The notes below the pieces were generated by a model. It made no database searches, was not told the DNA's origin, and saw nothing but the letters and a program-made list of their open reading frames with translations. From positions 209,112-273,111 of the forward strand of contig CACJMO010000001.1 in assembly GCA_902594545.1 (NCBI GenBank): a stretch of DNA of 64,000 bases, in the 5' to 3' direction. The translations under genes and the position numbers were made by a program. Position 1 is the first letter of the stretch. Every line of letters starts with the position of its first letter. Positions 44,602 to 46,983 of the stretch are shown one piece after another. This stretch comes from an uncultured SAR86 cluster bacterium (lineage in GTDB: Bacteria > Pseudomonadota > Gammaproteobacteria > Magnimaribacterales > Magnimaribacteraceae).

Positions 44602-45169
44602 AGCCACATTCTTTCTCTTTAAGACACTCATGGATATTTTTACAATAGGAGTTGTTTTTAATTTTCTTTTTAGGCTACTCAAAGTAGATTATTACAACCC
44701 CCTAGTTCAGGGAATTATCAGAGCTGTAGACTTTCCCAGCCAATTAATTAGAACAGTCATAAAACCCCTATGGAGTTTTGATTTGGCATGTTTCTTAGTG
44801 GCTGTATTTATTCAAGCAGGTGCATTTTATTTAGCCGTTATTGCGGGAAGCATAAATTATGATCCGATCAAAATATTGCTGTGGTCTACCTATTCCGTGA
44901 TTTTATTGATGTTAAAAATGGTTTGGTGGATTTTATTGGGAGGAATAATAATCAGCTTCGTTGCTTCAAATGTTTTTCATCCTGCGGTATTGTTGATTAG
45001 ACAGATGTCAGATAAATTTTTCCATCCCTTTAGGTCCATACTACCTCCTACAGGTGGACTGGATTTTTCTCCAATTTTTGCGTTTCTTCTTCTAAACTTT
45101 CTGCAGATAGCTTTCATAGAGTTTGCAGTTGAGTCCGGCTTGCCCGTATGGCTCTCAGTTGGTTTCTGA
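44594..45169 (+). CDS. yggT: YggT family membrane protein
   Basis: A 191-residue inner-membrane protein with two YggT repeats, each of paired helices followed by a conserved loop: FLFRLLKVDYYNPLVQGIIRA in repeat 1 and SNVFHPAVLLIRQMSDKFF in repeat 2. The role is uncertain; it has been linked to osmotic tolerance and, in other phyla, to septum or thylakoid proteins. The metX riboswitch begins 24 bases after its stop. Confidence 0.92.
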   Translation: MTEATFFLFKTLMDIFTIGVVFNFLFRLLKVDYYNPLVQGIIRAVDFPSQLIRTVIKPLWSFDLACFLVAVFIQAGAFYLAVIAGSINYDPIKILLWSTYSVILLMLKMVWWILLGGIIISFVASNVFHPAVLLIRQMSDKFFHPFRSILPPTGGLDFSPIFAFLLLNFLQIAFIEFAVESGLPVWLSVGF

Positions 45170-45193
45170 AGCTATATTCAATATAATCGTTAA

Positions 45194-45244
45194 TTCGCCG
45201 ATTTGAGATAGCTTGCGGGCGTTTAATTGAAATACTGCTAATGC
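45194..45244 (+). ncRNA. SAM-II-type riboswitch (metA/metX motif) in the metX leader
   Basis: The leader carries the ordered conserved blocks of the SAM-II aptamer as I remember them: P1 5' strand CGCC (45196-45199), then GATTTG (45200-45205), GCTTGC (45211-45216), P1 3' strand GGCG (45218-45221), an A/T linker CGTTTAAT (45220-45227), and GCTAA (45237-45241). A pseudoknot can form between TAGC (45209-45212) and GCTA (45237-45240). P1 is short (4 bp). SAM would signal enough methionine and lower metX expression. The downstream gene is exactly the expected target. Only a covariance search would make it certain. Confidence 0.82.
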
Positions 45245-45252
45245 ATTAAATT

Positions 45253-45285
45253 AAACCTGTTTAGCTTAAGCGAACAGGTTTTTTT
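45253..45285 (+). terminator. Attenuator-like hairpin and T-run abutting the metX start codon
   Basis: AAACCTGTT (45253-45261) pairs with AACAGGTTT (45273-45281), 9 bp with an 11-base loop, and the right arm runs into T279-T285, directly before the ATG at 45286. This looks like an intrinsic terminator. It also buries the only AGG that could serve as ribosome site for metX, so the same hairpin could block translation. It probably is the expression platform of the SAM-II element upstream, 8 bases away. Confidence 0.75.
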
Positions 45286-46395
45286 ATGAGTAATTCAATA
45301 GGACTAGTAGAACCAAAAAAGGTTACCTTAGACAAAGGTCTGAGATTAGAAAGTGGTAAAGAGCTTAAAAAGATTGAGCTTATTTATGAATCTTACGGCA
45401 CCCTAAACGAGGACCTTTCAAACGCTGTACTTATATGCCATGCCCTAAGTGGCAATCACCATGCCGCTGGAATATACGAAGATGAAAAAAGAGCTGGTTG
45501 GTGGGATGCCTTAATTGGTCCTGGAAAAGCTATAGATACAAACAAATTTTATGTGGTTTGCCCAAATAATATTGGTGGATGCCATGGCTCAACTGGCCCC
45601 ACTTCTATCAATCAAGAGACTGGTGAAATATACGGTCCTGATTTCCCTATGATAACTGTTAAAGATTGGGTGAAATGCCAATCAATGCTTTCAGACCATC
45701 TTAAAATTAAAAAATGGCATGCAGTTGTTGGCGGAAGTTTGGGAGGAATGCAAGCTCTCGAGTGGTCGCGCTTATTCCCTAAACGAATAGAAAAAGCTGG
45801 GGTGATTGCCGCTGCTCCAAAATTAAGTGCCCAAAATATTGCATTCAACGAAGTAGCAAGACAGGCAATTTTGAATGATCCTGATTTTGAGGAAGGGAGA
45901 TACCTATCAAAAAATAAAACACCAAAACAGGGCTTGAGGTTAGCTAGGATGGTAGGTCATATTACCTACCTTTCTGAAGAAGCAATGAGGAATAAATTTG
46001 GCAGGGAGTTAAAAGAAGAAAAATTAAGTTTTGGTTTTGACGCTGAATTTGAGATAGAAAGCTATCTCCGACATCAAGGAGACGTATTTTCTGAACAATT
46101 CGATGCCAATACCTATTTGCTCATGACAAAGATTCTAGATTACTTTGATCCTGCCAATGAACACGAAGGTGATCTGGCTGCAGCCTTCAATCCTATTGAG
46201 GCGCAAATCCTTGTAATGTCTTTCTCAACAGATTGGAGATTCTCTCCTGATAGATCTAAAGAAATTGTTAATGCCTTAATCAAAGCCAAGAAAAAGGTAA
46301 GCTACATTGAGGTGAATAGTCCACATGGGCATGATTCATTCTTATTTGCTGATGATGCTTATGTAAAAGGCTTATCCTCATTCTTAGAAAGTTAG
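45286..46395 (+). CDS. metX: Homoserine O-acyltransferase MetX
   Basis: Activates homoserine by acetylation or succinylation, the first committed step of methionine synthesis. The 369-residue alpha/beta hydrolase-fold protein has [11 protein letters not shown], the nucleophile Ser151 in [25 protein letters not shown] with the Asp, and [10 protein letters not shown] with the catalytic His. Whether acetyl- or succinyl-CoA is used cannot be decided by eye; MetX proteins paired with MetW in gammaproteobacteria can be succinyltransferases. It is controlled by the leader RNA described at 45194-45285 and abuts metW. Confidence 0.95.
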
Positions 46396-46983
46396 ATGAA
46401 TACAATTGAAGTCATAAAAAACTGGACGTCAACAAAATCTGAAGTTCTAGATCTTGGTTGCGGCGACGGAGAAATTCTCAAGACCCTAAAAGACGAACTT
46501 CAAATAAATGCCTTGGGCGTAGAAATTAATCAGAGCAATATTAATATTTGTATTCAGTCCGGTGTAAATGTTATTCAACAAAATATTGATGATGGTTTAG
46601 GTAACTTCTCAGATAAAAGCTTTGATACGGTTATCATGAGTCAAACCATTCAAGTCCTAAAAAATCCAAAGCAGGCTCTGCTGGAAGTGACCAGAATAGG
46701 AAATGAAAGTATTGTGACGATCCCCAATTTTGGTTACTGGACAACGAGATTGAAGCTCTTATTTCTAGGAAAAATGCCAATCACAGGTTCTTTGCCAAAA
46801 ACCTGGCATGAGACAGAGAACATTCACTTATGCACAATTAAAGACTTTGAAATACTCTGCAAAGAGTGCGGTATAGATATAAAAGAAAAGAAATTTTTCA
46901 GTTCTTCAGGTAGAGAAAATTTATTAACAAATACTTTTCCAAACTTCTTTGCCACAAGTGCAATTTACAAAATATCCAAATGA
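46396..46983 (+). CDS. metW: Methionine biosynthesis protein MetW
   Basis: A 195-residue class I SAM-dependent methyltransferase-fold protein with motif I VLDLGCGDGEIL and TVIMSQTIQVLKNP, IVTIPNFGYW and PKTWHETENIHLCTIKDFE, all MetW-specific. It acts with MetX in homoserine acylation in several proteobacteria. The ATG follows the metX stop with no gap, so the pair is translationally coupled. rdgB overlaps its end by 4 bases. Confidence 0.94.
   Translation: MNTIEVIKNWTSTKSEVLDLGCGDGEILKTLKDELQINALGVEINQSNINICIQSGVNVIQQNIDDGLGNFSDKSFDTVIMSQTIQVLKNPKQALLEVTRIGNESIVTIPNFGYWTTRLKLLFLGKMPITGSLPKTWHETENIHLCTIKDFEILCKECGIDIKEKKFFSSSGRENLLTNTFPNFFATSAIYKISK

Follow-up and report, generated by a model that had tools for sequence, protein, structure and literature searches.

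The leader of metX in the window, as we call the whole stretch of 64,000 nucleotides of SAR86 DNA analysed here, holds a SAM-II-type aptamer at positions 45194-45244. This leader probably works as a transcriptional OFF switch that descends from SAM-II, with a modified ligand pocket, an origin as a family-level copy and a rewired antiterminator. The element appears to be a SAM-II-derived variant, SAM-II-like on all tested features except for the cut-off score and A47, and because these two fail it is not filed as a standard member of RF00521.

Sequence landmarks and conserved pairing

The preliminary description had read here a 51-base block with GATTTG, GCTTGC, a P1 helix and GCTAA in this order, forming a SAM-II-type aptamer with a possible pseudoknot. 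The sequence is exactly so, and both aptamer and pseudoknot are borne out by homologous leaders, in which P1 and the outer part of P2 show compensatory changes. The parts of the element are the following:

45194-45244, + strand: SAM-II-type block, landmarks in order, 42 bases 5' of the metX ATG at 45286
45196-45221, + strand: P1 hairpin, CGCC (45196-45199) with GGCG (45218-45221), around L1 and the P2 5' strand
45200-45205, + strand: GAUUUG (GATTTG), L1, third strand of the SAM-II triplex, with U10-U12
45208-45209, + strand: 5' strand of the outer P2, positions 15-16, partner of 45245-45246
45211-45216, + strand: GCTTGC landmark, read from the sequence
45213-45216, + strand: UUGC, 5' strand of the P2 core, partner of GC(U)AA at 45237-45241; invariant
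45222-45236, + strand: L3, UUUAAUUGAAAUACU, doubling as the predicted antiterminator partner of 45249-45255
45237-45241, + strand: GCUAA, 3' strand of the P2 core, with the SAM-contact U44 at 45239; invariant
45242, + strand: U in place of SAM-II A47, the base normally holding the aminoacyl end of SAM
45245-45246, + strand: 3' strand of the outer P2, positions 50-51, showing two-sided changes with its partner strand

The ordered pattern GATTTG-N4-8-GCTTGC-N10-25-GCTAA matches once in the 64 kb and in none of 100 dinucleotide shuffles, which together with the covariation rules out a chance match. The plain minimum free energy of the whole leader (z -1.66) is little informative, as is to be expected with a pseudoknot.

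Alignment A1 gathers 39 distinct SAR86 copies of the element, and pairing is kept in 92.3% of its cells, compared to 31-51% in controls with the partner shifted by 1-3 columns. Two-sided changes affect four of the six pairs of P1 (GC to AU in 16 sequences, CG to UA in 7), a helix of 4 bp in the window and of 6 bp in many relatives. The outer P2 pairs, which are U-A and A-U in the window, show such changes in 14 and 10 of the 39 sequences (CG to AU in 12 and to UA in 2; CG to UA in 10). The inner P2, UUGC/GC(U)AA, never varies in A1 and covariation is uninformative there either way; its pairing agrees with the structures of SAM-II and SAM-V (PMC3764141, PMC6061858). The GAUUU of L1 is likewise unchanging across the 39 sequences.

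Covariance-model scores and gene context

The gathering cut-offs are 36 bits for RF00521 and 44 bits for RF01726, and no Rfam model reaches gathering level on the window leader. RF00521 lists no match there at E<=10, and the best-scoring SAM model on the window is RF01726 (SAM-II long loop) with 13.5 bits (E 2.9). Identity with SAM-V was rejected, as the Rfam SAM-V model has no match in the region at E<=10. Model R1 gives 69.9 bits, a score that is not independent since R1 was built including the window sequence. The metX leaders of sister genera (g2 and g5) score 32-36 bits with RF00521 (G002:C122 35.6, G004:C1 33.3, G009:C19 32.4), 35.6 bits being the highest value for g2, and a second copy in the genome of the window, 5' of metY (an O-acetylhomoserine sulfhydrylase-type gene, named from its sequence), scores 35.7 bits. 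The element is present in the metX leaders of every genus of the window's family (f1) having an intact metX. The preliminary description had proposed to run RF00521 on this leader, and had set against its own reading the joint lack of a significant score and of compensatory changes in homologous leaders; the gathering score was missed and the compensatory changes are present.

The naming of the downstream gene as metX was confirmed with NCBIfam, and metW is probably co-transcribed with it:

45286-46395, + strand: metX, homoserine O-succinyltransferase-type MetX, NCBIfam NF047916 (MetX_succinyl) 608.9 bits, cut-off 560
46396-46983, + strand: metW, 3' of metX, TIGR02081 236.9 bits

On the 5' side lie yggS, proC and a yggT-like gene, which has no NCBIfam match and is so named from its position and sequence. 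The host, with a genome of 1.34 Mb at 71% completeness, is a gammaproteobacterium as had been proposed, namely SAR86, and MetX relatives at 76-79% identity are named 'SAR86 cluster bacterium'.

A replaced pocket base

A47 of SAM-II has been described as completely conserved and as belonging to the SAM pocket (PMC3764141). In SAM-V the aminoacyl group of SAM is held by the equivalent base, A50, and an inosine at this place caused a severe drop in SAM binding (PMC6061858). The 24 metX leaders of two sister genera, g1 and g6 (24 genomes, the window included), have U at this position in 23 cases and C in one. A47 is found in 9 of 9 metX leaders of g2, g4, g5 and g7, in all 66 other SAR86 copies read and in 58 of 58 readable copies from the class and phylum searches, which are the best-scoring ones and biased towards the consensus. 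The same genome keeps A47 before metY. The other pocket bases (U10-U12, U20, U21, G22, C23, G42, C43, U44, A45 and A46, as listed from PMC3764141) are all present and invariant in the 39 sequences. A pattern with a pyrimidine at 47, which takes in only gamma-type copies with GCUUGCGG, was searched in 369 genomes of the class and found the window and one other copy, L254. The latter (G541:C6:147603), a second copy of SAM-II, has C at 47; its terminator U-tract is broken and it is probably decaying.

Leaders with U or C at 47 form one group on the MetX tree (support 97/94), and the replacement of A47 arose once. Over the 24 genomes, identity amounts to 96.5% in the aptamer from P1 to position 47 and 94.2% in the next 16 bases, 55.5% in the spacer between the -10 box and P1, and 44.2% at metX fourfold sites. 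With 96.5% in the aptamer against 44% at fourfold sites, the altered element is under strong purifying selection and is maintained; a decaying copy in the window was rejected on this conservation. No compensation was seen at position 19 in the 39 sequences, C19 occurring alongside A47 and U47 alike. U47 could be tolerated thanks to a shifted outer P2, in which C19-G48 and G18-C49 would pair with base 47 bulged.

Promoter-like site, terminator and predicted antiterminator

The elements around the aptamer that may form its promoter and expression platform are:

45159-45164, + strand: -35-like box TTGGTT, overlapping the yggT 3' end, 17 nt from the -10 box, read from the sequence
45182-45187, + strand: -10 box TATAAT, a few bases 5' of P1
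45211-45265, + strand: predicted antiterminator, 5' side, GC (45211-45212), GCGGG (45215-45219) and UUUAAUU (45222-45228)
45211-45265, + strand: predicted antiterminator, 3' side, AAUUAAA (45249-45255), CCUGU (45256-45260) and GC (45264-45265)
45253-45285, + strand: intrinsic terminator, AAACCUGUU (45253-45261) with AACAGGUUU (45273-45281), U-tract into the AUG

TTGGTT matches TTGACA weakly and was left unscored by a simple scan. Five of the six letters of the -10 box are invariant in 20 aligned leaders and the first is nearly so (the row of the window starts one letter in), in contrast to the spacer down to P1, which is only 55% identical. The terminator folds with -12.3 kcal/mol and its pairing is kept in 99.1% of cells, and in two leaders a pair has changed on both sides, from GC to UA; a simple terminator scan of the window did not list it, though folding and conservation support it. 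Inside its 3' arm, at a distance of seven bases from the AUG, lies the SD-like AGG (45276-45278). In three leaders that are close relatives (L006, L009 and L010), the hairpin is retained with an interrupted U-tract, which would favour translational control there.

Truncated-transcript folds of metY leaders and of the metX leaders of g2 allow GCUAAAGAGG, on the 3' side of P2, to pair with the terminator arm CCUGUUUAGC. Compared to shuffled upstream sequence, this pairing is strong in L070 (reached by 0/1000 shuffles) and L025 (4/1000) and weaker in L157 (11/1000) and L001 (28/1000). The metX leaders of g1 and g6, including that of the window, have lost this complementarity. GCUAA:UUAGC alone, tried as the antiterminator of the window's genus, is not kept in L012-L018 (UUUUGC, GUGC) and is thus replaced by the P1/L3 partner given by folding. 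The same partner is predicted in all g1/g6 leaders folded as truncated transcripts, and it is incompatible with P1, P2 and the terminator. Its cells are paired at 99.3% with zero double changes, and its duplex energy is moderately better than that of shuffles (17 to 260/1000, with 39/1000 for the window and 260/1000 for L014); lacking double changes and having this moderate support, it remains a prediction. As to features of attenuation, the GC-containing hairpin and the U-tract are thus conserved, and the alternative partner of the 5' arm is predicted without covariation support.

Taken as a switch, the leader would be transcribed from a start near 45190. Ligand, in all likelihood SAM, would be enclosed by the folding of P1 and of the P2 pseudoknot, which would free AAACCUGUU (45253-45261); the terminator hairpin would then form and transcription would stop before metX; as the hairpin also masks the SD-like AGG, translation may be affected too. 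When ligand is lacking, the aptamer strand GC..GCGGG..UUUAAUU would pair with the 5' arm of the terminator, allowing read-through into metX-metW. The metX copy would have arisen in the SAR86 family of the window, probably from a metY leader with its terminator, and in the ancestor of the two genera A47 would have become U and the antiterminator partner, formerly the 3' strand of P2, would have become the P1/L3 strand.

Distribution and origin

At E<=0.001, RF00521 has matches in 112 of the 203 genomes searched from the order; for the class the figure is 118 of 369, spread over 87 of 272 genera, and for the phylum 84 of 398. Gammaproteobacterial matches mostly stay below the cut-off, with 30 of the 369 genomes above it. 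A survey of about 200 proteobacterial genomes, from 2014, reported SAM-II in Rhizobiales and Rhodobacterales only (PMC4239095). Its presence beyond alphaproteobacteria, in Coxiella for example and among gammaproteobacteria at large, had been published earlier (PMC1273637, PMC2258182). The preliminary description had stressed a location outside alphaproteobacteria, which is not surprising in view of these publications and of the counts in class and order.

Element-bearing metY leaders occur in the SAR86 families f1, f2 and f3. In f2 and f3 the element is missing from the metX leaders examined, with yggT and metX adjoining or nearly so. Within f1 the metX copy appears to have been gained, and in the simplest history a metY leader, terminator included, would have been copied into the yggT-metX junction of f1. 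This derivation from a metY leader is suggested by near-identical terminators (e.g., L001 and L028).

The preliminary description had also suggested a transfer of the regulatory RNA, together with the gene or independently of it. A recent horizontal transfer from alphaproteobacteria such as SAR11, with or without metX, could invoke the fact that SAM-II is commonest in alphaproteobacteria and that SAR11 shares the habitat (PMC2704228). We regard it as extremely unlikely, given the wide distribution in order and class and the SAM-II copies before metY across f1-f3. The window also has the signature of the sampled gammaproteobacterial copies (AGC-UUGC-GGGCG with AAAUACN-GCUAA) and is without the alpha-type one of the top copies of the phylum search (GGC-UUGC-AGCCACG with AACAAGUC-GCUAA). 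Outside SAR86, the best relatives of its MetX are betaproteobacterial (55-59% identity, with 47-49% for alphaproteobacteria), and the yggT-metX order is retained in families without the riboswitch. The preliminary description thus stands for the aptamer, the pseudoknot, metX and the host, and falls for the Rfam score, the stress on a location outside alphaproteobacteria and the transfer; it had noticed neither the terminator and the promoter-like site nor the A47U change in the ligand pocket.

Other SAM-II copies in SAR86 and gammaproteobacteria

Tandem pairs of SAM-II-type aptamers, with a terminator after the first, occur in gammaproteobacterial genomes (L206, - strand, about 1569-1410; L215, - strand, about 1567-1400), and the genome of L206 (G447) has five RF00521 matches. 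Gamma-type copies also lie 5' of metK-like genes (L204, L217 and L223). The sampled gammaproteobacterial copies L195-L223 often have a common expression platform, in which the aptamer's GCUAAAGC is complementary to the terminator-arm GCUUUAGC; most genomes with this type stay below the RF00521 cut-off, so that the Rfam model under-reports the gammaproteobacterial group.

Within SAR86, copies precede a small gene of apparent outer-membrane beta-barrel type, an unusual target for a SAM switch (L155, L158, L159, L161 and L081), and in several genomes they lie immediately 5' of the metY leader. Others are found 5' of TonB-receptor-like genes (L080 and L164). A divergent SAM-II-like group, GAUCCUAUUGC ... 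GCUAAAACGG (L078, L174, L176, L183, L184, L189 and L190), precedes homocysteine-methyltransferase-like, TonB-receptor-like and membrane-desaturase-like genes, these types, as that of the beta-barrel-like gene, being assigned from sequence only.

Alternative readings of the altered aptamer

The change at position 47 may instead have modified the ligand preference, towards a SAM relative without the usual aminoacyl recognition or towards higher SAM levels than those sensed by the metY copy. This would agree with the single origin of A47U and its retention in 23 of 24 leaders (one C) while the other pocket bases are invariant, with the canonical A47 before metY in the same genome, and with the precedent of SAM-I, of which some variants discriminate against SAM and respond to spermidine (PMC10853860). 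We nevertheless think it rather unlikely, as a single contact differs, the residues around the adenine and the sulfonium are unaltered and a methionine gene remains the target; moreover, Y47-G48-C49 could provide the C19-G48 and G18-C49 pairs with base 47 bulged, so that the change may be structural. A degenerate remnant, which would no longer bind and would leave only a constitutive terminator or a hairpin covering the ribosome-binding site, might explain the loss of the Rfam score and of A47 and the shrinkage of the outer P2, where one or two A-U pairs are left. It is very unlikely in view of an aptamer 96.5% identical over 24 genomes against 44% for metX fourfold sites and of the invariance of every other pocket base; by contrast, L254, the only other pyrimidine-47 match, has a broken terminator tract.

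In favour of the OFF switch we counted the covariation of P1 and outer P2, the orthologous leaders detected by RF00521, the metY copy in the same genome, the conserved terminator, the alternative partner of its 5' arm in metX and metY leaders, the conservation and single origin of the aptamer, and a methionine target gene as with most SAM-II. Against it count the missing RF00521 score of the window leader, the absence of A47, an antiterminator without double changes and moderate compared to shuffles, and the U-tract interrupted in three leaders.

Comparison with known systems and significance

With SAM-II (metA motif, SAM_alpha, RF00521), the window leader shares P1, the H-type pseudoknot, GAUUUG/UUGC/GCUAA, the methionine target, a promoter a few bases 5' of P1 and a terminator 3' of P2. 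It differs by U at 47, an outer P2 with one or two A-U pairs, an L3 two bases longer, a score below that of Rfam and the P1/L3 strand as predicted antiterminator partner. The gammaproteobacterial copies L195-L223 and the SAR86 metY leader L001 have the same AGC-UUGC-GGGCG, AAAUACN-GCUAA and CCUG..UUUAGC-type terminator; unlike the window, they keep A47 and a P2 3' strand (e.g., GCUAAAGAGG) complementary to the terminator 5' arm (CCUGUUUAGC). The SAM-II long loop, although the top SAM model on the window, stays at 13.5 bits for a cut-off of 44, and its extra loop stem is absent here. SAM-V has the same type of pocket, with A50 as the equivalent of A47, whereas the window has no evident P3 stem and has a terminator, SAM-V acting on translation.

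SAM-II-type regulation in an abundant marine lineage goes unseen at the Rfam cut-off, and the leaders indicate that rewiring of an expression platform is compatible with retention of the aptamer. The natural and long-kept replacement of A47, with a canonical copy elsewhere in the genome, opens the role of this contact to experiment; it is by replaced pocket bases that variant riboswitch classes with new ligands usually come to light. A tentative and rather improbable extension is that the two sister SAR86 genera possess a variant class, in which A47 to U alters ligand or affinity, alongside the canonical metY copy; if true, consecutive steps of methionine synthesis would be under two sensors of different tuning in these bacteria.
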